Of a stretch of DNA of 26,297 nucleotides, positions 3-24,994 are shown one piece after another (within the stretch, counting starts at the first letter, position 1; the number at the start of each line of letters is the position of its first letter). The position numbers and the translations under genes are program-made. Source of the DNA: a virus. The stretch is from the IMG/VR virus record IMGVR_UViG_3300020404_000058, positions 1 to 26,297 of that record, one strand, 5' to 3'. The notes beneath the pieces were generated by a model. It saw nothing but the letters and a program-made list of their open reading frames with translations. It was not told the origin of the DNA and did not search any database.

Positions 3-641
3 TTGGCTGCGGGCGCAGTGTCTACCGCTAAACTGCAAGAGGGAGCAGTGGTTGCAGGTGTGCTGGCCTCTTCGGCGGTTACCACTGCATCGATTGCCGA
101 TGACGCGGTGACCGAAGCCAAGCTAGCAGACACCGTTGTCGTTAGAGCCGACCGGCAAGTTGGCGACCCGTACGCATCTCTGCAAACGACATCGCTGACG
201 CAATACTACTCCTTCACGATACCGGGAGGCACGTTGGCGACGCGCACAGTGCGCGTCCACGCGCACGGCACGATGAAGCAGAACAGCGGCAGCACGCAGA
301 ACTTTAAGCACGTCGTGCGTCTTGGCGGCGTAGACATGCATGAGGCTAGCGGCAGCATCGCCAACGACGCCGATCAGATCGTGTGGATCATGCGGATGGA
401 TCTGAGCTTCCGCGCGGCGGGCGCTCAATTCTTGAGCGGCGAGTGGCGGGTAAGCTCTGCGAGCAATTCAGCAGACGGCATCTCCAACATCTTCGGCATG
501 CATCGGGATGGCACGTGGGGCAACAACGCCGTAGCGCAGACCGACAGCGGCGATCTAGCGCTAACGTTTCACCAGAACTGGGCAACCAGCCGCACCAACT
601 GCGAATACAAGGTCTACGCGATCAACGTGGAATATGTCTGA
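3..641 (+). CDS. Tail fibre protein, C-terminal part (5' truncated by window edge)
   Basis: The frame is open at the left edge, so this is the C-terminal 212 residues of a longer protein and the apparent first codon (TTG) is probably not the start. The first ~45 residues are degenerate repeats of the type GAVSTAKL, SAVTTASIAD, DAVTEAKLAD, the collagen-like trimerising repeat common in phage tail fibre shafts. The rest is Gly/Thr/Ser-rich and beta-like (YYSFTIPGG, RTVRVHAHGT), consistent with a receptor-binding tip. A holin-region cassette follows, as after gene 17 in T7-like phages. The stop overlaps the next start by 8 bases. The family is inferred from repeat style and position; the receptor is unknown. 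Confidence 0.72.
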   Translation: MAAGAVSTAKLQEGAVVAGVLASSAVTTASIADDAVTEAKLADTVVVRADRQVGDPYASLQTTSLTQYYSFTIPGGTLATRTVRVHAHGTMKQNSGSTQNFKHVVRLGGVDMHEASGSIANDADQIVWIMRMDLSFRAAGAQFLSGEWRVSSASNSADGISNIFGMHRDGTWGNNAVAQTDSGDLALTFHQNWATSRTNCEYKVYAINVEYV

Positions 642-2990: not shown

Positions 2991-4019
2991 ATGCCTAACA
3001 TTAGTGCAACTACGCACCCTACGCTGCTGGATTACACCAAGCGGCAAGATCCTGATAAGAGCATCGCGACGATCGTCGAGACTCTTGCTCAGACCAACGA
3101 AGTGCTCGAAGACATGGTCCAACTTGAGGGCAACCTTGAGACCGGCCACCGCACCACTGTCCGTTCGGGTCTTCCGGCTCCGACGTGGCGCAAGCTCTAC
3201 GGCGGCGTCCAGCCGACTAAGAGCGAGACTGTGCAGGTCACGGACACCATCGGCATGATGGAAGCCTACGCCGAGGTTGACAAGCAACTTGCTGACCTGA
3301 ACGGCAACACGGCTGCGTTCCGCATGTCAGAAGACATGGCCCACCTTGAGGGCATGAACCAAGAGTTTGCAGACACGCTGTTCTACGGCGATGAAACGTC
3401 TGCTTCAGAAGAGTTCACTGGCTTTCTGCCGCGCTTCAACTCGTTGAGCGCTGAAAGCTCCGAGAATATTCTGCTGGACACTGACTTTGGTGGTGCTAAC
3501 GCAGCAGACGCTGACAACACCAGCATTTACTTGATTGTTTGGGGGCCGAACACTTGTCACGGCATCTACTCCAAAGGCAGCCAAATGGGTCTGTCAAAGG
3601 AAGACAAGGGCCAAGTAACTGTAGAAGACGTTGTCGGTGATGGCACGGGTGGTCGCATGGAAGCCTACCGCACGCACTACAAGTGGTGCTGTGGCCTGAG
3701 CGTTCGCGACTGGCGCTACATCGTGCGTATGCAGATCGACTCGACGAACCTGGGTGCAGATCCAGCTACGAGCGGCGTTGCAGACATTACGCAAATGATG
3801 TCGGATGCTTGTGAACTCATTCCGAGTCTCAGTGCAGGTCGTGCTGCGTTCTACTGCAACCGCAAGGTTAAGCAAACGCTGCGGAAGCAGTTTGTGACCA
3901 AGGTCAAGCAATCGACCTTGAGCATGGATGAAATTGGTGGCATGACCACCCTTACTTTCGACGGCATCCCGATCCGCAAGGTCGATGCCCTTCGCCTTAA
4001 CGAAGCTCGCATTAGCTAA
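2991..4019 (+). CDS. Major capsid protein
   Basis: 342 residues. Recognisable blocks are DTIGMMEAYAEVDKQLADLN, a MSEDMAHLEGMNQEFADTLF block ending in YGDE, SIYLIVWGPNTCHGIYSKGS, and a C-terminal GGMTTLTFDGIPIRKVDAL. These match the capsid proteins of BPP-1-like (Bbp17) podophages. It has the E-loop-like N-terminal half and late beta strands expected of an HK97-fold shell protein. Position between scaffold and cement genes supports the call. GAGGAG upstream (spacing ~8) gives a strong ribosome site for a highly expressed protein. The length is usual for the family. Confidence 0.88.
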   Translation: MPNISATTHPTLLDYTKRQDPDKSIATIVETLAQTNEVLEDMVQLEGNLETGHRTTVRSGLPAPTWRKLYGGVQPTKSETVQVTDTIGMMEAYAEVDKQLADLNGNTAAFRMSEDMAHLEGMNQEFADTLFYGDETSASEEFTGFLPRFNSLSAESSENILLDTDFGGANAADADNTSIYLIVWGPNTCHGIYSKGSQMGLSKEDKGQVTVEDVVGDGTGGRMEAYRTHYKWCCGLSVRDWRYIVRMQIDSTNLGADPATSGVADITQMMSDACELIPSLSAGRAAFYCNRKVKQTLRKQFVTKVKQSTLSMDEIGGMTTLTFDGIPIRKVDALRLNEARIS

Positions 4020-4034
4020 TAGGAGGACACACAG

Positions 4035-4493
4035 ATGTTGATTGATAAGAGTTTGGAAATGGCGGATGCCGTTGATATTTCGGCAAGCGCAGGTGGCCCG
4101 ACTAAAGTTGGAACGGGCATTGATCTCCGGCCTGTCGGTGTGACTGACAACGCCACGTTGGACATGTCGGTAGGTGAAAACCTTCAGTTTGTGGTCGATT
4201 TCACCACGGCTGTATTGTCGGGTGGCTCGGCTACGGTCAATGTTCACTTGACGACTGCTGACAACGAGGCGTTGACTTCGAACCCTGTCGATATTTTTAC
4301 GACGGGAGCGCAAGCCAAGGCTGATTTGATCGTGGGCAAGCGTTTCCGCGTTGCTCTACCTAAGGCAGACTACAAGCGATTCTTGGGTGTTCGAATCACT
4401 ACGGGAACAGCCACGACCACTGCGGGAGCAATCAATGCCTTCTTGGTCAAGGATGTGAACGCCTGGACCTCTACGGACACGCGCACTGACTAA
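4035..4493 (+). CDS. Bbp16-like capsid cement protein
   Basis: 152 residues, Thr/Ala/Val-rich and all-beta in appearance: MLIDKSLEMADA at the start, then VGTGIDLRPVG, NLQFVVDFTTAV, KRFRVALPKAD and FLGVRITTG. The order of motifs and the position straight after the major capsid gene match Bbp16, which decorates and stabilises the BPP-1 capsid at its threefold sites. A full AGGAGG at 4021-4026 precedes the ATG, in keeping with a protein needed in hundreds of copies. The stop overlaps the next start (TAATG). Confidence 0.8.
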   Translation: MLIDKSLEMADAVDISASAGGPTKVGTGIDLRPVGVTDNATLDMSVGENLQFVVDFTTAVLSGGSATVNVHLTTADNEALTSNPVDIFTTGAQAKADLIVGKRFRVALPKADYKRFLGVRITTGTATTTAGAINAFLVKDVNAWTSTDTRTD

Positions 4494-4693
4494 TGAAAGT
4501 CAGAGCAACAAATAGAGGCATTTGCCTCTCTCGTCGCTGGAAACCCGGCGAAGAGTTTGAGGTCAGCGAGCGGTCATTCAATCCTTCTTGGATGGAAGTG
4601 ATCGAGGAGGCACCGGCTAAAAAGAAGCCGGGTCGTCCCAAGAAGCAGCCGAAGGAAGACAAGCCTTCGGCGTCGGAGCAGGCGGAAGTCTGA
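4493..4693 (+). CDS. Small basic protein with AT-hook-like tail
   Basis: 66 residues. The N-terminal half (MKVRATNRGICLSRRWKPGE, then SWMEVIEEAP) looks folded. The second half is low complexity with KKKPGRPKKQ, a good match to the AT-hook core (basic-GRP-basic), then KEDKPSASEQAEV. It starts in the TAATG shared with the cement gene. Short proteins with such tails often sit here in podophage head modules. DNA contact inside the head, or a chaperone role, is a guess from the motif. Confidence 0.55.
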   Translation: MKVRATNRGICLSRRWKPGEEFEVSERSFNPSWMEVIEEAPAKKKPGRPKKQPKEDKPSASEQAEV

Positions 4694-4699
4694 GCCACA

Positions 4700-4733
4700 T
4701 AGTGCGGGGGTCGCAGCCGCCGCCCCCGCGCTA
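4700..4733 (+). other. GC-rich hairpin between head and tail genes
   Basis: TAGTGCGGGGG (4700-4710) pairs with CCCCCGCGCTA (4723-4733): 11 pairs with one wobble and a 12-base loop. No T-run follows, so it is more likely an mRNA processing, protection or attenuation element than a complete terminator. It would allow head genes to be expressed above tail genes. Confidence 0.55.
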
Positions 4734-4736
4734 TAC

Positions 4737-4774
4737 CTGACGGCGGCTACCTGAGGTAAGCCCGTGGCCGTCAG
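4737..4774 (+). promoter_or_regulatory. Long hairpin enclosing the ribosome site and start codon of the tail adaptor fusion
   Basis: CTGACGGC (4737-4744) is the exact complement of GCCGTCAG (4767-4774). Inside it, GGCTACC (4745-4751) pairs with GGTAAGCC (4755-4762) with one bulged A. This gives 15 pairs around a TGA loop. The probable Shine-Dalgarno (GAGGT, 4753-4757) lies in the loop and inner stem, and the GTG start codon (4764-4766) is in the CGTG bulge between the two stems. Translation of the large downstream protein should be throttled or switched by this fold. The pairing is seen directly; the control role is inferred. Confidence 0.55.
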
Positions 4775-7700
4775 AAAGTTTATTGTCGTTGCAGGTCAGA
4801 ATCAGGCTACAGAAGTAGCCAACGCAACGGAGTGGGAGGACAACCACCTCTACGCTGCCATCCGCAGCCCGCGCAACGCGGACTCGCAAACGCCAGACTA
4901 CGCATCTGGTCCCTACAACGACATCCTGACACTGCCCTTTACCTTCAAGGGCGGGCCTCAGTCAGACAACCTTGGGGCTACGACGTTCGGGTCGCACCAG
5001 ACGGCCAACGTCATGGGCAAGGCAACGCAGGCTATCAAGTACCTGACGTTCTACGACCCGACTGCTAGCTACCAGAATCTAGGAACGCAGACTACGTCGT
5101 GCTACCCCGGCACGGGCAAGGTGCTCGCAGGCTCTACGTCTACAAGCATCAACACATCAGTCACTTGGCAGTATGACCCGACAGGGCTTGTCATTACGCG
5201 CCGCAAGACTGGCACTACGCACACTGTAAATACAGCAGCAACTACCGGGACGACGCTTACTTTTGATGCTGCACAAGCTTTTGTGCCGCCTCCAGAAACG
5301 GGCGAACTGTTTGACTTTGTTCCTACGGCTGGCGCTGCGGGATCAACAACCACCGTCAAGTTGCACAACGAGTTTGGTGGAATCGCTGACCCAGGATCTG
5401 CTGGTGATCCGACTACTGGGGCTGCTATTGGCGGGAATGGTCAGCATCTTTGCTTCATCAACAAGATCTTAGACAGCAGTGGAGGCAACGCATCGGCTCG
5501 GGTCGTATGCCGTAGCCGACCTGTTTATGTGGGTCAGCCTATTAAGTTTGCCGAGGGTGGATCAGTCAGTATTCCAACCGGATTTGACAACACCACAACT
5601 TACTACGTCACGCGCAAGGCAGGTCTGCTAGAGACGGTTACGTCATCTGGCTACCTCAACAGCAGTAACCACATTAACTTTACTGGCGCTCACGGCTTAG
5701 GCGCAGATGAGATTGTTAAGTTAAAGGCAGTGACAGGGTCACTACCGAGCAATCTAAACAACACAGACAAATACTTTGTCCAAGTTGTAGATGAAAAGAC
5801 AATTCAGTTGGCTGCAGGCGTTGGCGGTAGTGCAATTGACCTTACTGGAACGGAAACTGACACGGTTCAGATTATTCGTCAGGACAGTTATGCCGCCTTC
5901 TTTATCTCAGACGCTCCAGGGGGAGATGAAAAGGTTGCTTCCGCTGACAGTGGACAGAACGCAATTGCAGCAAACAATCTTCTAATCTCGTTTGAGTCAT
6001 CATTCCGAGGCAGCCTGACTGGTCTTCAACTTCGTTGTTTATCAGGCACTCAAGCAAACGTCGGATTTGCACGGGCAATCCATGACGTAAAGTCTGAGAG
6101 CAACATCAATGTGTTGACTACGGAGGCATTCCCTGAGGCAACGGCAGAAGATGACACGTTTGCCATTGAGGTTCCGCCTCTCAACAACCAGTCAATCCCA
6201 TTCGAGAAGTGGGCTATGTGGTTGCCATGGTCTCCCTTTGAAGGCAGCGCACCGTTTGATGGGCCAGCAACGGTAGCCATTACCTCTACAGCCACTGCAT
6301 TAACGGTGACTGTGCAGGACTCACCAACGCTTGTAGGAGGCATTCCATCTGTTGGAAGTGCCGTCAAGTTCTTTACCAATGGCACTCTGACATCGCCGCT
6401 GGTCCCAGGCAAGATGTATATCGTGTCGTCAGTAGACGGATCGACACTGACCCTACAAGACCTAGATGCCGCAGACGTGTCTAAGATAGTTGGTGTAGAT
6501 GGCGGCACGGCTACTGGCAAGAGCTTTAACGGTGGTAAAACATTAGAGTCAGGCGCTAACTCACGCCATGTGATGTTTGTCTTTGATCAAGACAACAAGA
6601 GAAACCCGTATCCTCCAGGGTTCAACTACCCCAACCACCACGCTACGCCTCGCGCCTATCAGCCTTTTGATGGTCCAGGCCAGATCTCGATCGACCCTAG
6701 CATCAGCTTTCACCCCAGCCTTGCACTCAAGATGCATGAGCACACAGGCGAAACGATGCACGTCCTGGTCTGTGCCATGCGAGACACAAGCATTGGTCAC
6801 AAGGAGGTAGCTGCGTCTACAGACGCAATCACTCCCCACGGATGGCTAGATCAAGCACAGCAAAAGTCTTGGTCTCCTGGCGAGCCCAACAACTGCTTTG
6901 CTCGGCTCGAAGACATGCTTGACGCCGCCAAGCTAGCGTTTGAGGCAGACGGAGACACGGGTGATTGCATAGGCATCTTCTGGGCGCAGGGCGAGGAGGA
7001 TGCTCGACACCAGCCGCTAGCAGACAACTACAAGAACAGCGCCAGCAAGATCCGCTCGTCGATTCGCAAGGCCATCAAGGATCGCTCGCTGACCTCTCTC
7101 GAAGAGGACAAGATCCCGTTTATTCATCCGAAGATTACTACGTCTACGATCTGGACGTATGCTTCTACGGTCAACGCAGCCATCCAAGATCTAGCGGACG
7201 AGGATCACTTTACGCGCACGTTTGAGGTCAGCACGTTTGAGTTGACTGCGGACAAGAACCCTTCGTCGATCAACGGGTCTGTCAAGATCCACTACAGCGG
7301 AGTGGGCATGACCAGCTTAGCGGAGTCTGCCTACAGTGCATGGAAAGACACACAGCAGATGACTTCGCAGGAGATCGACATCTGCAACTTGGCGTTGGCT
7401 CACATCGGAGACAAGGCCACGGTCACCAGTCTCAATCCTTCAGATGGAAGCCACCAAGCCGATCTATGTGCTCGTTACTACCCCGTGGCTAGAGACCTCT
7501 GCTTGGAGCGACATCGCTACGACTTCACCATCAAGCAGTCTGCTTTGGTTGCTCTCACAACTAGCGGAAGAACAGACTTTGAGTATGCCTACCGGCTGCC
7601 GTCTGACTTCGCGGGAGCGATTTCCGTCATCGCGAAGGACTCGCTGGACGACCAAGTCAGTGCGGGCATCAAGATCCCGCAACCGTTTGTCATCGAGCTA

Positions 7701-7991
7701 AACGATGACTACGACCGGATCATCTACTGCAACTTGCAAGATGCAGTTCTTCGATACCAAGCCAAGGTCACCGACTCGTCTCAGTTCTCTAGGATGTTCG
7801 TTTACGCGGTTTCTTGGCAACTAGCCAGCATGCTTGCCGGTGCGTTGATCAAAGGCGACGAAGGCATGGGGGCGGTTAGGAATGCTGGTCAAATGGCTGA
7901 GTTCTACATGCAAAAAGCCGCAGCATTCGACAGTCGGACTACTCGCGAAAAGCCTGTCGTAGACGCCAACACCAACCCCTGGGATCGCTAG
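4764..7991 (+). CDS. Fusion: SGNH/sialate-O-acetylesterase-like domain + beta modules + T7 gp11-like tail adaptor
   Basis: 1075 residues. Residues 4-18 (RKFIVVAGQNQATEV) resemble block I of sialate-O-acetylesterase-type SGNH hydrolases, usually AGQSN. Residues ~60-600 are beta-rich Thr/Gly/Asn modules (e.g. TDKYFVQVVDEKTIQLAAGV). The hydrolase signature resumes at ~640: CAMRDTSI, then GIFWAQGEEDARH (block III, ~737-749), then KIHYSGVGM with His843. Residues 866-1075 (MTSQEIDICNLALAHIGDKA onward) are a complete T7 gp11-like tail tubular protein A, about 200 aa in T7, which joins portal to nozzle. At GQSN the Ser is Asn13, and the Asp three before His843 is Val, so esterase activity is doubtful. 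The enzymatic part may bind or once cut surface glycan. The gp12-like gene starts 2 bases after the stop. Confidence 0.75.
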   Translation: MAVRKFIVVAGQNQATEVANATEWEDNHLYAAIRSPRNADSQTPDYASGPYNDILTLPFTFKGGPQSDNLGATTFGSHQTANVMGKATQAIKYLTFYDPTASYQNLGTQTTSCYPGTGKVLAGSTSTSINTSVTWQYDPTGLVITRRKTGTTHTVNTAATTGTTLTFDAAQAFVPPPETGELFDFVPTAGAAGSTTTVKLHNEFGGIADPGSAGDPTTGAAIGGNGQHLCFINKILDSSGGNASARVVCRSRPVYVGQPIKFAEGGSVSIPTGFDNTTTYYVTRKAGLLETVTSSGYLNSSNHINFTGAHGLGADEIVKLKAVTGSLPSNLNNTDKYFVQVVDEKTIQLAAGVGGSAIDLTGTETDTVQIIRQDSYAAFFISDAPGGDEKVASADSGQNAIAANNLLISFESSFRGSLTGLQLRCLSGTQANVGFARAIHDVKSESNINVLTTEAFPEATAEDDTFAIEVPPLNNQSIPFEKWAMWLPWSPFEGSAPFDGPATVAITSTATALTVTVQDSPTLVGGIPSVGSAVKFFTNGTLTSPLVPGKMYIVSSVDGSTLTLQDLDAADVSKIVGVDGGTATGKSFNGGKTLESGANSRHVMFVFDQDNKRNPYPPGFNYPNHHATPRAYQPFDGPGQISIDPSISFHPSLALKMHEHTGETMHVLVCAMRDTSIGHKEVAASTDAITPHGWLDQAQQKSWSPGEPNNCFARLEDMLDAAKLAFEADGDTGDCIGIFWAQGEEDARHQPLADNYKNSASKIRSSIRKAIKDRSLTSLEEDKIPFIHPKITTSTIWTYASTVNAAIQDLADEDHFTRTFEVSTFELTADKNPSSINGSVKIHYSGVGMTSLAESAYSAWKDTQQMTSQEIDICNLALAHIGDKATVTSLNPSDGSHQADLCARYYPVARDLCLERHRYDFTIKQSALVALTTSGRTDFEYAYRLPSDFAGAISVIAKDSLDDQVSAGIKIPQPFVIELNDDYDRIIYCNLQDAVLRYQAKVTDSSQFSRMFVYAVSWQLASMLAGALIKGDEGMGAVRNAGQMAEFYMQKAAAFDSRTTREKPVVDANTNPWDR

Positions 7992-7993
7992 TC

Positions 7994-10900
7994 ATGCCGA
8001 AGACCCGCAAACTTCAGTTGTCGTTCGCTGGCGGCGAAATCGACACTCAGATGTATGGGCGTATCGACGCGCAGCAATATCAGTCTGGCCTTGCGACCTG
8101 CAAGAACTGGCTAGTAGACCCTAGAGGTAGCATACGTCGTCGCCCTGGGTTTCAACGAGTTGCTAGCAGTTTAGACAGCACCAAAAAGTCGCGACTCATT
8201 CCATTCACGTTCTCTGTTGATCAGCAGGTAGCAGTAGAACTGACTGATCAAAAAGCCAGATTCCATACAAACGGTGCGACAATCGTCTGGGCTGATTTCA
8301 AAGAGTTCCAACGCGAAGACTTAAATCAAACAGACGACACGATTGGGTTTGTGAATGAGCATGGATTTGTAGATGGCGATGCCATTACTTTCTATGCAGA
8401 AGATCACTCTTTTAGTTTTCTGCCGACACCGTTTTCAGATCCAGACGGCGATTACTTTGTTCGCGTTGTAGACAGCAAGACGATCCAAGTTTTTGATCAA
8501 GCCACAGGTGGCAGTGTTGTTCAGATCACAAGTTTTGGCACTGTTGGCAAAAAGTTTTATGCGTTCAAGCGAGGAGCCACAGATGGTTTTGTAGGCGGTG
8601 CTCGTATCTACAAGGAGTGGGACAACCGAACGACACCTGACTGCAAAGCTCGTCATAGAAACGGCCCTGGCACCAGCAGATTCTGTTTAGACTTTACAGC
8701 AGGTCAAGATCCAGGCCGTCGAAAGTTTGAGCAAGGGGAGTCGGTCGAACTAGTTGATCAAGATGGCAATGACGTGCCTGGGATTCCGAAACCACTCTAC
8801 GTCGATAGATTGGCAGGCAATGTCGGTGCTTTAATTTGTGGAGGAGCACAAAACAGTCAATCTGAACCATTCAGTTTTGGTCTGCGTACAAAGCTTGAAT
8901 ATGTAAACACTATCGCTGGCGGGCAACCCAACACGTGGATTAATGACACAACTCTGACCGCAATCAAAAACAACGCTGCCAACAACGTCACTGAAATATA
9001 CGTTCGCCAATACTGGCAGAAAGGCGACTTAGCTTATTTGCCTGGAGATGGCCCTGCTACAACAGGCATACCTTCAACTGAAGCTCACAGAGTCGTCAGG
9101 ATCGAAGCAAACACTGCTAGTGCTGAGGCAGTTCAAAACAAGTTTGTCACTCAAATTGGAGAAAACTCTTCTAGCCTAGAGAGCGATGGCGCGTTTTCCG
9201 TTGTGTCTCCGTTTTTAGAAACGGAGTTGTTTGACATCGAATACGATCAGTCTGGCGACATCGTTACTCTGACGCACCCTAATCATCAGCCGCAAGAACT
9301 GCGTCGTTATGACACGCTGAACTGGGACATTTCAGCAATCGACTTCAGTCCCAAACTTCCAGCACCTACGTTGTTCCCCGGTGTTCCCGTTCGTGGGCAA
9401 GCGTATTTGATAACAAAGTTTGATGGAAGCGACGATCAAACAGAGTTTATTGTCAACGATGGCGAGATCATGGCTGCGCCATTTGCAGTAGGTGACACGG
9501 TTTACATTGATAATACTGGCACCAGCAGCATCCCATCAACGGGTTACTACAGCATTGCAAACGTCCGCATCACCACTGTTAGCGGTGTTGATGTTGCCAA
9601 TAAAGTTCGACTACGTGCAGAAAACGGTGAGTCAGTTAGCGGAACCTCGACATCAACAGGAACGTTATCTGGCATAAACATGTATTACACGGTAACAAAT
9701 GCAGACCCTGACGAAGTCTATGTTGTTACAGCCGTTGATGAAAGAGGGCAGGAGTCGTTTGCCTCTAACGAAGAAACAGTCGCCAACAATGTTTTAGCGT
9801 CTCCAGGGGCTAGTAACGATTTGCAATGGACAGGAGTTCCAGGCGCAAGAAGCTACAACGTCTACAAAAAGCTCAATGGTTTGTTTGGATTTATCGGTCA
9901 GGTAAATCACGAAGCTGGAACATCAGCCTATCAATTCAAAGACGACAACATAGTTCCAGACTTTTCTCAGACTCTTCTAATTCCAGATGAAGAGGTAGAT
10001 GAAAGTTTTCAGCCTCGCGCTTCGGCCCGCTTCGAGCAGCGACGTTGTTTTGGTGGGTCAGATGCTTTGCCGCGAACTCTGTTTATGAGTCGATCTGGCA
10101 CAGAGTCATCTTTTTCGTATCGCTTACCTACTCAAGCTGACGATCGAATCTCAGTAGACATAGCATCGCGTGAAGCACACGTCATTCGACACATCGTGCC
10201 AGTGCAAGACTTGCTGCTGATGACTCAACAAGGTGAGTTTAGAGTCACCGCCATTAACAGCGATGCGATTACCCCTAGCACAATCGCACTGCGTCAGCAG
10301 TCGTATGTAGGCAGCAACAGCGTTCACCCTCAAGTAGTCAACAATTCGGTAGTGTTTTGCTCTGCGCGTGGCGGCCATGCCCGTGAGATCAATTTTCGCA
10401 TTGAAAATCAGGGCTACCTAACAGGTGACTTGTCGCTTCGAGCATCTCACTTGTTTGATGGCTTTACTCTCGACGATCTGGCCTACTCCAAGGCACCTGT
10501 GCCCGTCCTGTGGTTTGTGTCTAGCACCGGCAAGTTGTTGTGCTTGACCTACATTCCAGAGGAGCGAGTGCTGGCTTGGCACCAGCATGAGACCGAAGGA
10601 ACTATTGAAAGCGTTTGCTCGTTGTCTGAAGGCAGTTACGACAACATTTACGTTGTGGTGCTACGTGGCAGCAATCGTTCTATTGAACGCCTTGTCCAGG
10701 TTCGTGAAGAAGAACTGAAAGACGCTGTTTATCTTGATGCCAGCGTGACCATTGATGGCACCTACACTGGGACTGGCACGCTGTCTGTGCAATCCACAGC
10801 ATTGCCGATCAAAGACAGCGCGGTAACCATCACTTCGCTAGACGATGCAGGATCGACTGCTACCCCAGGCATCTTTAGCATTGCTGACGTAGGCTCTGCG

Positions 10901-11488
10901 ATTGAGTTTACATCTGGAACAAGCAAGCATCGAGTAACCATTGAATCGTTTGTTTCAGCGACTCAGTTAACGGGCACTTTGCAGTCGGACTTCCCAGGAG
11001 ACTTGATCAACACGCCTACCTCTACGTTTGCTTTTGCACGCAAAGAGTTTTCAGGGTTTGCTCACTTAGCCAATCAAGTCATCACGGTCCTCGTAGACGG
11101 CGAACGCACTGAGTCCGTCACGGTGTCTGACACAGGGACTGTGACCTTTAAGGACTTTGCCGTCAAGATCTGTGGCGGTCTGTCCTACACCTCGCAGGCA
11201 AAGACTCTACCGATGAGTCTAGAAATCGAGGCTGGTGCTCAGGGCCGCACCAAGAACGTCAACCAACTGTCCGTCAGGGTCGAAGACTGTGGCGCTCTGA
11301 AGGTTGGCATGGATGAGGCAGACACCAAGTCTGTCGAAGAACTCAAAGACACAGAACTCAAGACGGGCGAGTTTAGGACGCATGTGCCGTCAACCTGGGA
11401 CGAGGACACGCAGGTTGTCATTGAGGCATCAGGCGCAGCGCCTGCATCTGTGCTCAACATCACAACCCAGATTTCGATCGGAGACTAA
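7994..11488 (+). CDS. Tail nozzle protein, T7 gp12-like (tail tubular protein B)
   Basis: 1164 residues against ~794 for T7 gp12. The N-terminus, LQLSFAGGEIDTQMYGRIDA then YQSGLATCKNWLVDPRGSIRRRPGFQRV (two consecutive pieces), is the family hallmark. Residues ~115-195 hold an inserted beta module (DYFVRVVDSKTIQVFDQ) similar to one in the preceding protein. A fibronectin-III-like segment lies near residues 570-660 (EVYVVTAVDERGQESFAS, SYNVYKKLNGLFGFIGQV). The C-terminus (VRVEDCGALKVG... VVIEASGAAPASVLNI) again matches gp12. The product forms the hexameric nozzle under the adaptor; the extra modules probably decorate the outside. Confidence 0.85.
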   Translation: MPKTRKLQLSFAGGEIDTQMYGRIDAQQYQSGLATCKNWLVDPRGSIRRRPGFQRVASSLDSTKKSRLIPFTFSVDQQVAVELTDQKARFHTNGATIVWADFKEFQREDLNQTDDTIGFVNEHGFVDGDAITFYAEDHSFSFLPTPFSDPDGDYFVRVVDSKTIQVFDQATGGSVVQITSFGTVGKKFYAFKRGATDGFVGGARIYKEWDNRTTPDCKARHRNGPGTSRFCLDFTAGQDPGRRKFEQGESVELVDQDGNDVPGIPKPLYVDRLAGNVGALICGGAQNSQSEPFSFGLRTKLEYVNTIAGGQPNTWINDTTLTAIKNNAANNVTEIYVRQYWQKGDLAYLPGDGPATTGIPSTEAHRVVRIEANTASAEAVQNKFVTQIGENSSSLESDGAFSVVSPFLETELFDIEYDQSGDIVTLTHPNHQPQELRRYDTLNWDISAIDFSPKLPAPTLFPGVPVRGQAYLITKFDGSDDQTEFIVNDGEIMAAPFAVGDTVYIDNTGTSSIPSTGYYSIANVRITTVSGVDVANKVRLRAENGESVSGTSTSTGTLSGINMYYTVTNADPDEVYVVTAVDERGQESFASNEETVANNVLASPGASNDLQWTGVPGARSYNVYKKLNGLFGFIGQVNHEAGTSAYQFKDDNIVPDFSQTLLIPDEEVDESFQPRASARFEQRRCFGGSDALPRTLFMSRSGTESSFSYRLPTQADDRISVDIASREAHVIRHIVPVQDLLLMTQQGEFRVTAINSDAITPSTIALRQQSYVGSNSVHPQVVNNSVVFCSARGGHAREINFRIENQGYLTGDLSLRASHLFDGFTLDDLAYSKAPVPVLWFVSSTGKLLCLTYIPEERVLAWHQHETEGTIESVCSLSEGSYDNIYVVVLRGSNRSIERLVQVREEELKDAVYLDASVTIDGTYTGTGTLSVQSTALPIKDSAVTITSLDDAGSTATPGIFSIADVGSAIEFTSGTSKHRVTIESFVSATQLTGTLQSDFPGDLINTPTSTFAFARKEFSGFAHLANQVITVLVDGERTESVTVSDTGTVTFKDFAVKICGGLSYTSQAKTLPMSLEIEAGAQGRTKNVNQLSVRVEDCGALKVGMDEADTKSVEELKDTELKTGEFRTHVPSTWDEDTQVVIEASGAAPASVLNITTQISIGD

Positions 11489-11489
11489 C

Positions 11490-12233
11490 ATGGGCGACAC
11501 TTTAAGCGGTGCTTTTGGATCACTGCCCACTGCACAACAGGCTTCTGTTGCAGCTAGTGCTGGCGTAGACGCCATGTCGGGCATGGCTGGAATGTTTGGC
11601 ACTGGTGAAATCGCTGGTCAGGCTTTTCAACCTACGGTCACTCAAGCTGGAAACGCGGCGACGCAAGCCAGACTAGATCAAGCTCAAGGCTTTCAAATTG
11701 CTGGCGCGATCGCTCAGATCGGCGGCGCTATTAACAGCGAGATTGTCAGGTTCTACCAAGCCAAACAGGCTCAGTACGAAGCCAAGTCCAAGGCGTCGTC
11801 CATGCGGTTTCAGGCTGACATGGCGAACATCAACGCCCGTATGGCAGAAGACGAGGCTGTCAGCATCTTAGAAGCAGGTGAGCAACAGAAGTTCCAACTC
11901 ACCATGCGTGCAGGCATGGAGATGGCGCAGCAACTGACCCGACAGGGCGCACGCGGAATCAGGATCGGCGCAGGATCGGCAGCAGAGACACAGGCTAGCC
12001 TTGATCTGGTCAAAGAGATCGACGCCTACAACATCGACACAAACGCCATGAGGCAGGCTCAGTCCCGCCGCATGCAGGCTGTAAACCTCAGAAACCAAGG
12101 TTTGCTAGGCCGAGTGTCGGCAAGCAACATCGAAAGCATGGCACCTCGCAGTGGCAGTTTGCTTGGAACCGCTGGCCGCGTTGGCAGTGAGTTCTTCCGA
12201 TACATGGGCCAACAATACCGTAGTCAGAACTAA
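11490..12233 (+). CDS. Internal virion protein, T7 gp14-like
   Basis: 247 residues from the ATG at 11490, chosen because GGAG (11480-11483) lies 6 bases upstream and because a longer frame would run back into the gp12-like gene. The N-terminus is Gly/Ala-rich and amphipathic. The core is one long helical stretch (FRYQ-like QAKQAQYEAKSKASSMRFQ; NINARMAEDEAVSILEAGEQ; RGIRIGAGSAAETQASLDLV). The MRxx-QGxRGIRIGAGSA block is typical of gp14-class ejection proteins, which T7 inserts in the outer membrane as the first part of its DNA channel. Position between gp12- and gp15-like genes supports this. T7 gp14 is ~196 aa. Confidence 0.8.
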   Translation: MGDTLSGAFGSLPTAQQASVAASAGVDAMSGMAGMFGTGEIAGQAFQPTVTQAGNAATQARLDQAQGFQIAGAIAQIGGAINSEIVRFYQAKQAQYEAKSKASSMRFQADMANINARMAEDEAVSILEAGEQQKFQLTMRAGMEMAQQLTRQGARGIRIGAGSAAETQASLDLVKEIDAYNIDTNAMRQAQSRRMQAVNLRNQGLLGRVSASNIESMAPRSGSLLGTAGRVGSEFFRYMGQQYRSQN

Positions 12234-12235
12234 TC

Positions 12236-15200
12236 ATGGTCAGAGTTCCTAGCGTTGGGCTGTCGCCTATCTCGCGCCCACAGTTCCAAGCTCCCGGCGT
12301 TGTTGCCTTCCAAGGCACTGGCGAGTCTCAGCAAGCAGCGCGAGACGCGCAGCGACTAGGTCAGGTAGGCAACTTCTTGTCTGCTGTAGGCCGTGAAGCA
12401 GAGGACAAGGTCAACAACGCTAGAGCCCGCGAGTTCGCCAACACTTTTGAGAATGGCGTCAACAAGGCTCTGTTCACCTACGAGCAGACCAAGGGCAAAG
12501 ATGGCGTCACGGGTCTAGAAGCCTTCAACAAGGAGATCGAGGAGATCTACCAGGGCTCTAGCGGCATGTTGATGAACGACACGCAACGCCAAGCCGCTGC
12601 TCCGATCGTCGATAAGATCCGCAATCGAGCCAGCCTGCGTTCACAGGCACACTACGCAGAGGCTGCCTCTCAATATGAGCAACAGCAAATCGTTGCCGAG
12701 CGCATACAGTTAGAAGAAGCTCTTCGGGCAGAGCCTTTAGGAAACAACTCTATAGCGTTGTTTTTGCGTTTACGCCAAAACTTATCTAACGAGGCTAAAA
12801 ACAGAGGATACAGCGACGAACGATTGGATCTCCATGTTTTAACTGGCACTGACAAACTAATTGCCGACATCTTTAATGGACTTGCTAACAGCGAAGATCC
12901 AGAGAGTGCTGCACGATGGTTAAGTGCAGTTTCAATTTTTGAACAATCTCCTGTATCAGCAGTTCGCAGCGAACAGTCTCCTCAAAGAGGCATGACTGTT
13001 GAGCAAGCACAGGCCGCTAGCCCAGAAGAGCGCCAGCTTTTTGGTCGGACAATGCTGGATTCAACGCGAAAGCAACTAGAAAGCCAAGGTCGCGAAATTG
13101 TTGGTCAAGCATGGACGCGCACAACAGTAGAAGACTTGCTTCAAAAAACTGACGGGGACTTTTATGAAGCACTGGGTCAGTCGCGAATGCTTGCTGACGC
13201 TAACAACTGGACAGAAACGCAGCGCGAGTCTGTTACAAACTTTATCTACAAGCGTGCCCGAGAAGATCGCTTGCTTCGCGCAGATGCCCAAGGCCAAGCG
13301 TTAGACGACGCGCAGCAAGAATGGATTGACAACGGCGGTGTAGTGTCAAAAGCAACACGGTCAAAGCTGCGAGAGTATCGAGTTGAGAACAACTTTTTAA
13401 ACTGGGTAGACCAACAAGAACGTGTCAGCGGAGGGTCTGGTCGCTCAAGCGGAGGATCTGGTCGCTCAAGCGGAGCAGGTTCTACGTCTGGGTCTACTAT
13501 TGGCGGCGAGGCTTATTTTGCGGCTAATAACAACGAGCATGGATTTAACCGTCTAGCCCGTGAGCTTAGGAACAGAAAGCGCTTGACCAGCAAAGACCCT
13601 GTCACGCTGGACGATTTAAAACCGTTTTATGTAGAGCTTCGAGAAAAAGGAATAAGTCGCGCCGACACTAACAAGTTGGTAGAGGGTGTCAGGCAAGTGT
13701 TGTTCCCCGACTCAGTAGAGCCGCCTAAGGAAGACAATTTTGACACCGGCCAAATCAGTAGATACTCACAACTCTACTTCGATCAACAGTTTGTTGCGGA
13801 CGTAAAAAGGCGAGGGATAACGTTAGACGAAAACAACGATATAGACTCCGACGCAGTCAAAATGCGTAAAGCAGAGTTCGATCGTCAGGTAGATCGCATG
13901 TATCAGTCGATGCGAACTAACCCTAACAACCAAAACAAAACCAATCACCAAGTGTTGGACATGGCTATGGTTGCAGTAATAGATCGCCGCCAAATTACCC
14001 TGAAAGATTCAGACGACTTCGGCGGAGTCAAAGTGATTAACGGCTGGTTCTTGAGTGAAGCAGAACGCCAAGCAGCCATGACTGCCGCAGCAGGGCCAGA
14101 AGCCTTGTTGAATAGCCTAGAAGAAGCTGGGGGAACTAAGCGCCGTAACCCTAACGGTTCTTATGCTGACGAAACCATTCTACAAGCAGCAATGCGTCGT
14201 GTAGCTTTGTCTAAGCGAGGCTCTGATCTAGGTCGTCAAGAAGCACAACGAATGCGTAGTGTTTTGGGCAATTACATTCAGAGCGAAATATCCAAAGAAT
14301 ACCCTGGCTTGCCTGTCAACGATCCTAAACGGCCTACGCCTGCTGTTTGGATAAACGCTAATCAGGACAAGCTTAATGAAACCATGCTGCGGCTAGGCAT
14401 TCCGCAAGACTTAGCAACTTTAATTGCTTCCAAACCGGGCGAGGTGATCTCTGAAGAAGAGCTTTTTACAGCAGTACTGCAAGTTGTCGAAGAAGACGAG
14501 GACCGCAGATACCTAGCGTCTACTGATGGTGTTCGCCAAGCCTTGCGGTTCATCAATAGCACAATCGAAAACCCTGACTGGCGGCTTGAGTATGCAGAAG
14601 AAGATAAGCAAAACGCTCAGGCTGCTTTCAGTGCACAAAGGCAAACCTTGCAGACAGCTTTTCAAAGGCGTCAGACAGACCGCAATTTTTCAAGACCGCT
14701 TTTGCATCGCTACTTAGACAGCCAAAGACAAGCGTTTATAAACGTGTCAGGCATTCACCCTAATCAGTGGAATGCCGCAATGCAGCTTCACCCTGCTGTG
14801 CGAAATGATCCTGTCAGGCTTTCTTACGGGGACATTCCAGCAAGGGATCTCAGTGATCAAGCCCGAGAGTTGTATTCTAAAAATCTAAGCCCAGAAGGTG
14901 TGCGCGTAGTTTCAGAAGAAGAATTGCAGTCGCTTAAAGTCGTCTTAGGCGAAGACAACTTGGTGCTTTCGAACCGTGGGGCTTACTTTGACTCCGCGCA
15001 ACTACCAGAGCCGTTGCTGCAAGAATACGAAAGGATTCGAACAGAGCGGGCAGAAGCTAGACCTGCTCAACTCCGAGAGGCTCGCATTCAGCAGATTATG
15101 CAGCCTGTCAAACCGCGACCCGGTTTGATGGGACAACTTATAGATTGGATCTCAGATGCTCCTTTAGAGGGAAGAACTCGCGAAGAAGCCGAACTGATAT

Positions 15201-15387: not shown

Positions 15388-18300
15388 ATGAACACGTTTT
15401 ACGGATCGCCCCTTTTGTTTGGATCTAACATGTCAGGTCAAATCCGTGCAAACCTGCTAGATCCCAACAGGCAAGACCCCAAGGCTTACGCTGCTAAACA
15501 CTCTTCTGTCGCGGCTCCTTTAGGGCCACAAGGACCACAAGATCCTCCGCGTAGTTTTGACAGTATTAAAGCGGAGTATTTGGCAAACAGAGCGTCTTCA
15601 GAAGAGTTTCTGCGTGAGTTTCCGACGCTTTCAGCCAACCTAGCCAACAAAGATTTTGTTGCGCTTGCTTACGACGACATTGGCAACCTGATTGAAACAG
15701 AGGGTTGGTGGAATCAAGTTGCTAACGGTTACGCGGTTGCTCGCAACACTGTCGAAATCGGGCAACTAGGCACTGGGGCCATGTTGGACGAGCGTGACCT
15801 TCGTCCTTACGAGCGCCAAAAACTGCGCCGTATGCGTGACCTGCAACGAGCGCACATGCAAAGCGAGCCAGGGTGGGTGGCTGCTGCAGCAGAACTTGTA
15901 GGGACCATGCAAGAGACATTGGTCTACTCAGGCGGCGTAGGCTTAACCCTTGCCAAGATACCTCCTCTTGCGCCTTTGGCTCCAATTGCAGCGGGGGTCA
16001 CTGCATTTGCTACGAGCTTCAACCTTGAAGCAGGCAACTTGTATGCAGAATTAGTAACCGAACTAGGTTACACGCCTGCACAGGCCAAGCAAATTAGCCA
16101 AGAGTATGGGGCTTACATTGCAGGCTTTGAATCTTTAGGTCTTCGAGGTGCTTCAGCGGGCCTGCGTGGATTGGGCCGTGAATTACTTAAGGGCAAAGGA
16201 AGCCCATTCTTAAACAAGCGTGACTTTGCTAAAGCCTTCAAACAGGTCGTAGTTAAAGACTTTGGTGTTAAGGGAGTTTTAGGGGAATCTGGGACTGAAG
16301 GTGTTCAGGAGGTCTTAACGGAAGCTGCTAAAGTCAAAGCCTCAGAACAGTATCAACCAGACAACCTCTACGAACCGGAATACTACGAGGCTTTCAGCCA
16401 AGCGTTTGTTCACACAGCAAAAGGCATGGTTGTGCTTGGTGGCATTCCTGCTGCTGCCCGGCTAGTGCGTGACACTGTGCGTGCTGCTGAGACGTTGCAC
16501 GACGAGAAAAAAGCAAGGCGAGCCGCTGAGCTTCGTCAACAGGCGTTGGTGCCACAGGCGCACGATCAAGTAGATGCAGAGTCAGGTGAGTCTTCAACTT
16601 ACGATCGCTACTACCTACGCGCCGAAGGGTTTTTAGATACTCTTAGGCAGATTGAGGAAGCGGAAGCGGCTCAAGGTTTGCCTGCTGGACAGTTCCGTGA
16701 GCAAGTAGAGCGTGAACAGCCTGGGTTAATTGCCAAACTAGAAGAAGCAGCAGGCCGCGAAGGCGATGTAGAGATGTCAAAGACGGACTTTGACAGGCTC
16801 TTTGCCAAGACTGAGAAGAAGACTTACGAGGTCTTGTTCCAGCATGTTGCTTTTATGGAAGGCGGGCTAACAACGTTGGAAAGCAAGGCGTTGATGAACA
16901 TCCGCGACCGTGTCATGTCAGACATGGACAAGGAGAGCAAGGAAGCCTTGGAAAACATGAAGGCTTTCGAGGAAGAGGTTGAAGCTGTCCGGCAAGAAAT
17001 TGAAGATCAATTGTCTTCACAGATTGGCGAGGAAGCGGCCAAGGGTTTAGACGCTTCTGCTAGCAGCACATTGTTGATGGCGTTTGTTCGGCGCGGAGCG
17101 GCTGTTTTGAACATCAGCCCCCGAGAGTTTGTTCAGAAATACATGCCACAAGTTGCTCAACAACCTCTAAACCAGCAGAAGGCAGACGAGGCTCAGGCCC
17201 AGCAGCAAACCCAACAGCAGACCGAGCAGCAACAGGTAGAAGTCAATAACGACGACCTCAAGGAGATGACCAAGTCGCAACTTCGTGCAGAGGCGAAGAA
17301 GCACCCTGGCGTCAAACGCAACGGCAAGGGGGTTACTGTCGATTCCCTTATCCAAGGGATTACGGAAGCGCGTGCAGCGGAGGCTCAAGCCCAGCAACGA
17401 CCTCAAACAGACACCCTAGATTCCGGCACCCTCTACAGCAAGGAGGGCGGTCGGACTCAAGCAAGAACAACAAAGTATGATGTTGCGCGCCAGCAGTTAG
17501 AAAACATCGCGTTGATTGAAAAGGCAGGCAAAATCGACACTCTTAGCGATGCAGAAGTTACAACTCTATACGACTCCCTTAAAAACGTAGGCTTCCAAAC
17601 TCAAGACGTAAGAACTCAACGTAGTGTTCTGCTTAACCTGCAAGGTAGAAGGGAGCAATACGAAGCAACTGTTGCCCAAGAATCGGAGTATGAAACACTC
17701 AAACTAAGGCAAGAGATTTCTCTCGGGTTTATTAGAGGATACGCCGCAGACGGGAAGGCTGGCGAGACTCGAATGAGCAATGACTTTGCTGATTCAGAGT
17801 CTGGGCTAAGAAAGGCTTTAGACGAATACGAGCGCCTAACTGGAGACGTTCTGCAAGAGTCTGAACTTGTCGGCATGATCCGCGATGTTCGCGGCAAGAC
17901 CATGCGCGCCGACAAAGCAGAGCAGCAAGACTCTGACGAAAGCTACCGTCGCAAAGCAGAGGGCTTAGAAGCAAAGCGGTCAGACATGGACATAGATGAC
18001 ATGTCGCGGCGCAAAAAATATGAAGCGGCGTATGGCATTTGGGAGGGTCGAGAAGCAACGCCACAAGGCATTTTCACAGGCGTTAGTGAGGATGTCTCAC
18101 GAACCTTTACCCTCTATAGCAAGGAGGGCGATCAGAAGCGCAAAACTCTAGGCACCGCCTCTTTCGAGGGCACGGACGCTATCCAGAAGATCCTGCTTGA
18201 CCCCGACGCCAAGCCAACAACTCTGATGCATGAGTTGATGCACTGGAACTTGGAGTTCTTGTCTGTGACTGGTTTGGCTATTGAGCAGAAGCCAGAGTCC

Positions 18301-21300
18301 GAGCGCACGGCCCTAGAGAAGCAGAACCTCAAGGACATCCAAGAACTGCTGAAGTGGGCTGGCTACGAAGGCACGTTGGAAGGCTGGCGCAACATGAGTC
18401 TTGATCAGCGTCGCCCGTTCCACGAAGCGATTGCAGCTTCTTTTGAACTGTATTTGTATGACCCTAATAAGTCTGCGCCGACCCCGCAGTTGAAGAGCAT
18501 CTTTGCGCGGCTAATCAAGTATCTGACTACGACCTACAAAGAGTTGGTTGTTAAGTTTCAAAAGGAATACGAGGACGAGTTCAAAAGGCCACTGCCGGGT
18601 TTGAACGAAGATGTCCGCGCAATCTTCGGACGCATGATGTCTGCCGAGCGGGACACGATGGCGTTCTTTGATGAGCACGACCTAAGCGCCATGATGGTTA
18701 CCCGCGAAGAGTGGGAAGCTGCTGGTCGAGATCCAAAGGATTACGAAGAATACGATCGCGAGTTCAAGGCTGCGCTAGCAGAATCGCAAGCAGAACTGAC
18801 TCAGCGCAGGATGGAGGAAATTGGCTGGCAAGGCCGTGCCCGTGAGCGAACGGCTGGAAAGATTCGGGGACAGCGTCGGCGCACGGAGTCGAAAGTTAGA
18901 GATGACATGGAAGAAGAAGTCCGCACGACTCGCGTCTTCCAACTTCGCAGCTTTATCTCTAACGGCTTCTATCAAGACACTAAGGCAGGAAGAGTCTCGC
19001 CAGACAAGGTGCCTAGCACACGCCTTAGTTATGAGCAGGTGGCTGCTATCGACGAGGAGATGGCGGTCGAACTTGCTAAGATGGGCTTGCTTAAGAGGCA
19101 GAACGGTTTGCCACTGGACGCAGCCCGCAAAATGTTCGGCTACGAGAGCAACGAGGAGATGCTGTTGGAACTCTCGGAGTCTCGCTCAATCCAAGGAGAG
19201 ATCGACTACCGCGTTGACCGCTACATGATTGAGGAGCAGTCAGGATTGACTGACCCCGTCTTGATTGAGGAGCGCATCCAAGCAGCGATTCACAGCCGAG
19301 CAAGAGAAAGGATGATCGGCTTAGAACTGAAATACATCCTGAACAATGGGCGCAACACAAAGGCAGAACTAGACCTTGCTCGCGGCATAGCTAAGGAAAT
19401 AATTTCCAACACGCCTACGGGTGACATCAACCTAACAGCTTACAATCACGCTGCCGTTCGTGCTCGCAAGAAAGCTCTCAAGGCTCTTAAAGACGGAGAC
19501 CTTGCTGCCGCCGCTTTTGCAAAGCGTCAAGAACTAGTCAACGAAGCGTTGATTCGCGAGGGCAAGAAGGCTCGCCAAGAAGTTGGCAAACTTGTTCGGT
19601 CTAGCCGCCGCGTGTTTAAGGCTCAGTCTGACGAGAAACTAGCCAAGCAGAAGAAAGATGTAATCATCGTCAAAGCTCTGCGTGCCTTGTTAGTGCAGCT
19701 TGGCATTGGGTCGATTGAAGGTGATCCTGTGGCGTTATTGGTGCGCTTCTCGCAGCACGACCCTGAGTTCTTTGCAGCTATAGCCAAGGAGATTGGATAC
19801 TTCCAAGGATTGGAACTGCAAGGTCCGGTGACTGGCGATCGTCGAAAGCAGATCGAGCGAATGAAGTTGGCCGATGTTCAGCGTTTGCGCGAACTGATCA
19901 ATGTCTGGATGAAACGAGCGAGCGACGTTCGATCAGCCGAACTGGAGGGTCGGAAAGAAGACGTTGAGACGATGCAGCAAGAACTGCTGGATCAAATCTC
20001 TACTATCCCGGTAGACCCAGATGCCTCTGCAAGGAAAAATAGCATTTGGTCTAACATCCGAGATTACTTCTCAGACCTCATTCGTTTTGAACACCTGTTC
20101 CGGCGCATCGACCAGGGTCAGATAGGTCCGTGGACGCGCTTGTTCGTGATGATCAAGGATGCTGGCAATGCTTACCGAGCAGAGAGCAAGGCATTCATGT
20201 CCAAGGACAAAGCCACGGGCAAAGGCTTTGACATGGAGGGTCGCCTTCGACAGTTAGACCTTACCATGCCAGGAGGAGAGAAGAGCATTGAGGTGACCTT
20301 CGGTGGGACAAAAGTAACTCTTGGCAGCAAAAATGCTGGAGCCAAGACGGAGATCATCCACCTAGCGATGCACTACTACGGCAACGCTAGTAACCGCGAG
20401 AGATTGGTATCTGGCTATGCTGGTGAAGACGCCACTGATGCCCAACTTCAGCGCACTGCTATCGACATTCAGAGGTTCTTGGAACAGCAGATCGCTGCTG
20501 GTGTGCTGACAAAGCAAGACTTTGAGTTTATGCAGGCGGTGTTTAATCACCTCAGTAGCGATGACATGCTGGGCCGTGCTCAAAAAGTGATGCGCGAGAC
20601 ACGTGGCTACGAGATGGAGACCATTAAATCTCAGCCGTTTCAGATCTTGTTCCCCGGCCAAGAAGGCACGACGGAGTTCAAGGGTGGATACATTCCTGTC
20701 AAGTTTGACCCAGACTTCCGACGCCAAACTGTGCAGACCTTGGAAGAAGGCGAGATGACGCTGGAGCAACAGCACGACTACATCTTGACCGTGCTGCCAG
20801 CTTTCACCAAAGACCGCTCGAAGACCCCTTCAGGCCAGCGCCTTCTTCTAGACTTGGCAAGTATCGGACACCATGCGATGGAGGTGTATCGCTACATCCA
20901 CATGACCAAGCCTGCGACCAACATCTACAGGGTAATCAACGGTCTGGACGGTCGAAGCCCTGTCGCTACTGCGTTCGTCGAGCGTTTTGGGCAAAGGGCT
21001 TACCGGAACTTGCTAAGTTGGATGAAGCGTTCTGCTTATCAGTCGTTCGAGCGTGACGACAGCCAAGTTGGGGACTTCCTCTACATGCTGGCTCGCAATG
21101 CCAACATCGGGATCATGTTCCTGAATGTTGGTAACGCTTTGCAGAACTACACAGGATTGATTATGCCGATGCGACGACTAGGCGCTCGTCGCGTGATGTC
21201 TGCTCTGACTCGCACGTTTATGAGCAAGACGATTAAGGAAGAGATTGCTGCCAAGTCGCCAGAGATGAAGGCGCGTTTAGAGCGCCAGATCTTTGACATC

Positions 21301-23758: not shown

Positions 23759-24185
23759 CTAGGCACTGCTCTTCGACCGACTGCATAAACTTCATGGTCG
23801 CATCCCAGGGATCGACTAGCATTCCTTCAGAGCACAGGTAGTCGAGCAGTGACTTCTGGCACTTGAAGTGCGGGCCAGGATCAAACCACTCGTCTCCGTA
23901 GATCGGGGTAGCGATTCTAAGTAGGTGCTGTTCGTGGATCTTCCAGTCTTCGGACCACGCAAGCGCAACCAAGTTCATCCGGACCTTCTTTTTGATACCC
24001 GGCACCTTCTGGTTGCCGTGGATGCGGCAGATCGGGCAGTTCTTGGTGCCTCCCAGCTTTAACAAAGTGCCTTCATCGTTAAGCGCGGCGTAACACCAGC
24101 CCTGCCTGCCCTGTCGAGACTCTTGAAGCCTGTTGATGAGGCCCATGAGTTGAGGCGAGAACTCTCGGTGATCGTGATTCCTCAT
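23748..24185 (-). CDS. GIY-YIG-like protein (MUG113/T5orf172 type)
   Basis: 145 residues. WCYAAL (30-35) and LLKLGGTKN (41-49) occupy the places of the GIY and YIG strands. Arg54 in PICRIHG and Glu85 in KIHEQHLLRIATP fit the conserved Arg and Glu of the fold, and DEWFDPGPHF (98-107) resembles the EWF block of MUG113-type members. These are small GIY-YIG-fold proteins in phages, often presumed nucleases. The first Tyr of the GIY motif is replaced (W-C-Y). The start lies in an ATGA overlap with the helicase loader, so it belongs to the replication operon. Activity is uncertain. Confidence 0.6.
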   Translation of the reverse strand: MRNHDHREFSPQLMGLINRLQESRQGRQGWCYAALNDEGTLLKLGGTKNCPICRIHGNQKVPGIKKKVRMNLVALAWSEDWKIHEQHLLRIATPIYGDEWFDPGPHFKCQKSLLDYLCSEGMLVDPWDATMKFMQSVEEQCLATT

Positions 24186-24994
24186 TTCCTCTGATCCTCC
24201 CAGTAGAATCCCAGCATCTGCCCGTCCTGTCTCAGTCTTGAGATCATGGCTTCCCCTAGGTATTCCACGAACTCATCCTTGGTCATGTTCGACACTAGGA
24301 TGGTGGGCCTGACCTCTCGGTAGCGGCTGTCGAAGAGGGCGAACAGGCTGTCTGCGGCGTGCTTGCTGTCCTTGTGTCGCCCGACTTCGTCCACGACCAG
24401 CAGGCTGGGAGCGGTGTAGGCATCGAACACTTCGCTCTCCATCTCGGTAGCTCCGCTGCCGTAGCAGTTTCGCAGCCGGGTCAGGAACTCGTTGGCCGTG
24501 ACGTAGCAGGCGCTGTGACCCCTCTTCAGGATCAGGTTGTTGACGATCGAGCACGCGGCGAAGGTCTTGCCGGTGCCTGGGTTGCCGATGAAGATGAGGC
24601 TGGAGCCCCTCTCCAGCGCGATCTCGAACTCCTCCAGATACTTGCGAAGTTTGTCTCCGATCTTCTTCATCGCTGGATCTGTGTCGCGCCAGTTCTCCAG
24701 GGTTGCATCGAAGTATCGAGGCGGCACCCCGGCCTGGACCAGCAGAAGCTCGTTGACCTGCGACTTCACGGTGTCATCGTCGGTAAGCCATGCGTTGTAG
24801 CGGGCTTGTAGTTCCTTCTCCTCCTTCTCGATCTCTTCGTTGCAGCGCGGGCACTTCGTCCAGAAGGCTTGGCACCGTGGGTGCCGGTGAGCCATCAGAT
24901 CGGACTCGTAGTTGCCGTGCTCGGGGCACTTCTTCAGCCCCGACTCGACCACCCGCCATGCGTTCATGTATTCAGCCTTGTCGCTCTCTTCCAT
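24182..24994 (-). CDS. DnaC-like replicative helicase loader (AAA+ ATPase)
   Basis: 270 residues. The N-terminal part has a zinc-ribbon-like CPEH (23-26) paired with CPRC (48-51), as in many phage loaders. Walker A is GNPGTGKT (137-144), Walker B LLVVDEVG (~198-205), and sensor-like SNMTKDEFVEYLG and ISRLRQDG (Arg finger region) follow. Such proteins open and place the host DnaB ring at the origin. GGAGG at 25004-25008 (minus-strand reading) lies 9 bases before the ATG and sets the start. It follows the organizer gene after a 77-base gap, the lambda O-P order. Confidence 0.88.
   Translation of the reverse strand: MEESDKAEYMNAWRVVESGLKKCPEHGNYESDLMAHRHPRCQAFWTKCPRCNEEIEKEEKELQARYNAWLTDDDTVKSQVNELLLVQAGVPPRYFDATLENWRDTDPAMKKIGDKLRKYLEEFEIALERGSSLIFIGNPGTGKTFAACSIVNNLILKRGHSACYVTANEFLTRLRNCYGSGATEMESEVFDAYTAPSLLVVDEVGRHKDSKHAADSLFALFDSRYREVRPTILVSNMTKDEFVEYLGEAMISRLRQDGQMLGFYWEDQRK

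Follow-up and report, generated by a model that had tools for sequence, protein, structure and literature searches.

Phage esterases and glycan-binding proteins are usually sought on tail spikes and tail fibres. One gene of IMG/VR virus record IMGVR_UViG_3300020404_000058 appears instead to make such a domain part of the head-tail joint, and the question raised by this locus is whether the domain is truly joined to a neck protein, whether it could still act as an esterase, and what it would do in that position. We examined the window, by which we mean the whole stretch of DNA analysed (positions 1 to 26,297 of the record, from an uncultured phage), together with related contigs and genomes, which carry working labels beginning with L.

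Results

The fusion is encoded by one open frame

4764-7991, + strand: SGNH/SASA-adaptor fusion protein, 1075 aa (open reading frame; 25 other contigs hold a full-length homologue or share the joint)

The frame opens with a GTG start, with the Shine-Dalgarno-like CCTGAGGTA on its 5' side, and encodes 1075 aa without an internal stop; at the base composition of the window, the chance of a stop-free run of this length is P ~1e-20. A first-pass annotation of the locus had read it as one joined protein and had proposed a search for the same fusion in other phages. The joined reading was borne out, and the SGNH-gp11 joint is kept in 25 other IMG/VR contigs. The full-length fusion is found in L007-L014, L020-L028, L035, L069 and others; IMG/VR full-length homologues are 62-96% identical, the more divergent ones about 40%, and BFVD holds one uncharacterised full-length homologue (A0A516LTA4). 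Further homologues were gathered by means of the invariant motif YPPGFNYP, whose match in L074 was discarded as a chance occurrence that falls within no ORF. The DNA at the joint is almost identical, and in the same frame, in the window, L007 and L008. Because independent contigs share this frame and many of them carry the full-length fusion, a missed stop or an assembly error at the joint is ruled out, and the fusion and domain architecture of the protein are strongly supported. In one further genome, L029, many frameshifts break the fusion gene, probably as a result of poor read quality, and this genome was set aside.

The adaptor domain and its probable place in the neck

7359-7991, + strand: complete gp11/tail tubular A adaptor, residues 866-1075 plus the stop codon (profile matches)
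2991-4019, + strand: major capsid protein, Pfam GP7 (Pfam)
4035-4493, + strand: Bbp16-type cement protein (Pfam)
4493-4693, + strand: small Bbp15-like gene that precedes the adaptor gene (gene-order comparison)
7994-11488, + strand: nozzle (gp12-like) tail protein (PHROG profile)

Residues 869-1065 match PHROG 394, 'tail protein', over profile positions 3-179 of 190 (E=9.5e-37), and the adaptor part also matches the connector protein of PDB 8ck1 (E=1.2e-11), in agreement with the earlier reading of residues 866-1075 as a complete gp11-type adaptor at the C-terminus. The order of capsid, Bbp16 cement, small Bbp15, adaptor and nozzle genes is common to the window and Bordetella phage BPP-1. The gp11-type adaptor of BPP-1, Bbp14, is 41% identical over the adaptor, but it is a stand-alone protein of 223 aa that lacks the SGNH module. 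The BPP-1 match seemed to continue 5' of the adaptor, but the sequence there was intergenic and contained a stop; for similar apparent extensions in Vibrio ALK and JG054, the genes inspected on the 5' side had no SGNH motif.

The near-complete genomes searched (41-43 kb) yielded one adaptor match and one SASA match each, both inside the fusion, and the frameshift-broken L029 genome yielded two partial adaptor matches. As the sole adaptor match in the near-complete genomes, the fused protein probably serves as the adaptor of the phage and is not an extra copy, which sustains the proposal that the module is built into the neck, probably in twelve copies. Its placement in the neck would follow from homology and gene order, and the copy number of 12 from known relatives. 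In SU10, gp11 is a dodecamer in which the C-terminal embracing loop contacts the portal and from whose helix bundle the fibres branch (PMC9509320).

A model of the fusion protein was built with AlphaFold on a 24-row alignment (mean pLDDT 65). In this model a long helix (residues 846-880) bridges the SGNH part and the adaptor, at moderate to low confidence. The adaptor part has a pLDDT mostly of 30-55, which is too weak to test the adaptor fold, and hence we infer how the module is oriented on the ring.

Several other features of the region were recorded. Just 5' of the fusion gene, positions 4694-4763 contain a strong GC-rich hairpin (about -37 kcal/mol for a 74-base stretch), the position of which is taken in stand-alone relatives by a C-rich stretch plus a T-run. 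Elsewhere in the window, 15388-22182 encodes a 2264-residue protein that matches PHROG 9880 and is probably an internal virion protein, and 24182-24994 (- strand) encodes a DnaC-like helicase loader. Limnohabitans phage DC33 (L004, PQ492659.1) is labelled Inoviridae and has BPP-1-type podovirus structural genes; the label looks wrong.

An SGNH fold is split by a beta-rich insert

4764-5063, + strand: N-terminal part of the SGNH fold, residues 1-100, with block I (alignment; superposition from residue 3)
5064-6587, + strand: beta-rich insert within the SGNH fold, about residues 101-608, fastest-changing and exchanged among close relatives (dS, identity profile, model strands)
5634-5861, + strand: 'HGL' beta domain at residues 291-366, with a relative in the nozzle protein (sequence comparison)
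6588-7358, + strand: C-terminal part of the SGNH fold, residues 609-865 (Pfam SASA 702-827; superposition)
6603-6638, + strand: signature motif NPYPPGFNYPNH, residues 614-625, core invariant across the module (alignment)

The N-terminal part had been annotated as an SGNH/sialate-esterase-like domain, with a Pfam SASA search and structure prediction of residues 1-865 suggested as checks, and both now point to that fold. Pfam SASA matches residues 702-827 with E=1e-6, above the gathering cutoff, and matches 24 of the 24 module members; NCBIfam gave nothing for the window fusion protein. The SGNH core of the AlphaFold model has a pLDDT mostly of 75-90. In a Foldseek search followed by VIA-align superposition, modelled residues 3-864 superposed on acetylxylan esterase 1zmb (Z 23.5, 2.1 A over 220 residues), NanS (3pt5, Z 21.4), the tailspike of cyanopodophage Pan3 (9vyh, Z 21.2) and sialic acid esterases (Z ~18). 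The model of an Ad1-fused homologue, L056, gave the same outcome (Z 22.2 to 1zmb), and in a PDB-wide profile search the QGE and DxxH blocks of the family aligned with those in 1zmb. The protein thus resembles the SGNH/SASA esterases 1zmb, NanS and SIAE in its predicted fold (Z 18-23) and in the alignment of blocks III and V, but it differs from them in its insert, in its phage neck placement and in the loss of Ser and Gly within its clade. According to the model, the SGNH fold is one domain, split by this insert of about 510 residues.

The SGNH parts and the adaptor are under purifying selection, SGNH dN/dS being mostly 0.04-0.24 between diverged pairs. Between the window and L007, dS is 0.254 in the insert versus 0.045-0.098 in the flanks, and between the window and L008 it is 1.395 versus 0.03-0.233; residues 241-400 have the lowest identity in the protein. 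When L007 was compared with window positions 3876-13985, the whole fusion gene was 90-99% identical, as against about 47-67% for the capsid and nozzle genes, and from this difference in identity the fusion gene seems to move between phages as one unit, or cassette. Exchange also touches other genes of these phages, namely those for the nozzle and internal proteins, so exchange of the insert is no specific proof of recognition.

The HGL-type domain is common to the neck fusion and the nozzle, with E=2e-4 within the window and 5e-10 with L011, and cyanophage baseplate wedge proteins contain domains that resemble it. A stretch of L069 that resembles insert residues 291-366 has a sub-cutoff match to an endosialidase beta-barrel family.

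Catalytic residues have been lost in the window clade

4794-4805, + strand: block I in degenerate form, GQNQ (residues 11-14), with Asn13 in place of the catalytic Ser (alignment)
6783-6785, + strand: block II oxyanion Gly position, here Asp674 (alignment)
6987-7004, + strand: block III QGEEDA, residues 742-747, intact at Q742-G743-E744 (alignment, PDB profile search)
7284-7295, + strand: block V, KIHY at residues 841-844, in which the spacing of Asp and His is disrupted (alignment)

Three stretches had been cited as SGNH blocks, and they fared differently on alignment. GIFWAQGEEDA holds up, with its QGEEDA intact, but FIVVAGQ stops one residue before the Ser position, and KIHYSGVGM has lost the spacing of its block, His843 being kept and the Asp displaced. 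These changes are not peculiar to the window. All eight sequences of its clade have GQN, not GQSN, at the block I nucleophile, and all eight have Asp, Ala, Ser or Asn for the block II Gly; block V is damaged in 8/8 as well, either by a displaced Asp or, in L011 and L013, by a change of His to Tyr. In contrast, every member outside the window clade that covers these sites keeps the Ser, the Gly, the QGE and the block V Asp and His, with extra residues between the Asp and the His in L047. A tree places the dead sequences beside Ser-bearing gp11-fused ones as a single clade with support 99/99, which implies that the catalytic loss happened once. As the Ser, the oxyanion Gly and block V are altered throughout the clade, the window protein is probably a pseudo-esterase, and the earlier description of the domain as glycan-active fails for it. 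Glycan binding by the window protein is possible.

The module is found on three types of neck ring

The module also lies N-terminal to two other kinds of ring protein. In nine contigs (L056, L061, L062, L067, L070, L075, L076, L078 and L079), the partner is the DnaT_2/PHROG 477 head-tail adaptor Ad1 (E ~1e-30). In four others (L047, L057, L068 and L073), it is a short gpW-type protein, and the C-termini of three of these four match PHROG 2545, 'head-tail adaptor Ad1'. The L047 C-terminus additionally matches NCBIfam head-tail joining just under the cutoff, and its gene is flanked by those for terminase gpA and a lambda-type portal, which is the position of lambda gpW; L073 has no profile match at its C-terminus and a gene order similar to that of L047. 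The readable in-frame C-termini comprise 26 of gp11 type (window included), nine Ad1 and four of gpW type, and none of any other type. Two contigs end before the C-terminus and stand outside these counts; L048 and L058 have no Ad1 match, and their C-termini were not seen.

In all fusions seen, the module is at the N-terminus of the ring protein. Lambda gpW forms a ring with 12-fold symmetry that attaches to the portal through its C-arm (PMC10721106). Since the portal is held by a C-terminal loop in gp11 and by a C-arm in gpW, the N-terminus is the free end in both, and by analogy the uniformly N-terminal fusions would fit a free ring N-terminus. The first-pass annotation had called the placement unusual; the adaptor fusion is real, but it is no one-off, because relatives with intact residues occur on gp11 and the module also occurs on the two other ring families.

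In the searches made, neither 50,697 GenBank phage records nor 84,980 species genomes yielded a sequence match to the module, and no prophage carrying it turned up in the species genomes. Derivation of the module from a GenBank phage tailspike was considered and rejected: the SGNH parts of the window, L047, L056, L061 and L069 had no match, and only the adaptor or the beta domain was matched. A search of the literature for neck connectors joined to a glycan domain found nothing.

Discussion

The explanation that we favour, and regard as fairly probable when taken whole, is that the adaptor carries an N-terminal SGNH collar for recognition of surface glycans, with deacetylation probable in its relatives. 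The fusion protein would join head to tail as the adaptor of a short-tailed phage of the BPP-1 kind, with each subunit bearing an N-terminal SGNH/SASA module, such that a collar of about twelve copies results. Because the C-terminal side of the adaptor holds the portal, its N-terminus would be free and the module could be mounted there. The module sits in like manner on neck rings of the Ad1 and gpW types in other phages. Most lineages keep the O-acetyl esterase residues and would probably trim surface glycans that are acetylated and lie near the virion. In the window lineage, where catalysis would have been lost once, the retained fold and the exchangeable beta insert would most likely serve as a non-catalytic glycan- or surface-recognition collar in adsorption. 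The outward position, the glycan ligand and the role in adsorption are what we infer, together with the function of the module as surface-glycan contact, enzymatic in most lineages and non-enzymatic in the window. Since this phage carries a tail fibre gene as well (window 3-641), receptor binding need not fall to the neck module.

The main rival to a recognition collar is a structural one, in which a bulky outward domain stabilises the head-tail joint or docks tail fibres and has no host ligand. A fold that stays under purifying selection with its catalytic residues gone would suit such a role. Moreover, SU10 fibres attach to the adaptor helix bundle and a fibre dock domain, near the expected site of the module, and the helix modelled at residues 846-880 could form a rigid SGNH-adaptor link. 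However, the closest stand-alone relatives, BPP-1 and Limnohabitans DC33, manage without the module, most relatives have an intact catalytic set that a scaffold does not need, and the insert diverges and is swapped faster than the remainder of the protein; on balance we consider a purely structural role unlikely. It is much less likely still that the ring bears few or no modules, either because the SGNH part is cleaved off or because a separate adaptor is made from internal Met866. Met866 does fall exactly at the start of the stand-alone BPP-1 adaptor, but its codon is not conserved (ACA in L011, GTT in L069, TCG in L071), which speaks against the internal start, its Shine-Dalgarno score in the window is weak, and the recurrence of the fusion with three ring families argues that the joining matters. 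Least probable of all is that the window protein is an active esterase through an unconventional catalytic residue, for although the QGEED block and His843 are retained and unusual catalytic triads exist in the superfamily (title of PDB 9h4u), the nucleophile, the oxyanion Gly and the DxxH spacing are all changed together, and clade members L011 and L013 also lack the block V His.

A recognition collar of the kind that we favour has partial counterparts in known systems. The Pan3 tailspike (9vyh) and the N4 tail chain likewise carry an SGNH-fold domain on the virion, and tailspikes of the O-antigen-dependent phages Moo19 and B2 have esterase activity (PMC11654681), but the esterases of Pan3, N4 and Moo19/B2 are on spikes or other tail parts and not in an adaptor ring subunit. 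Lactococcal neck passage structures also place glycan-binding modules at the neck, with variable ends that are shuffled (PMC6669499). They differ in being a separate protein, a proposed 18-mer collar with a CBM rather than SGNH domain, in phages of Gram-positive hosts. To our knowledge, the tail tubular A proteins of KP32, KP34 and OWB are of ordinary size without an added domain. They resemble the window protein as gp11-type adaptors for which action on the host surface, or binding to it, has been proposed, with hydrolytic activity reported for KP32 and KP34 (PMC5741709) and receptor binding for OWB (PMC7241545).

Recurrence of the module on three neck-ring types points to a swappable device for surface recognition, located at the neck of the phage, that has so far gone unrecognised. 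We would give even chances to the broader proposition that a neck-mounted SGNH family plugs onto the free N-termini of the 12-fold rings of gp11, Ad1/DnaT_2 and gpW to make a twelve-copy collar esterase in podophages and siphophages, with one lineage having turned it into a non-enzymatic recognition collar. The free N-terminus of the neck ring tolerates large domains, and the module is likely to occur in both short-tailed and long-tailed phages. Judged by its residues, the family naturally includes members that are probably active and members that are probably inactive, and the placement of the module indicates a neck-based route for touching the cell surface.
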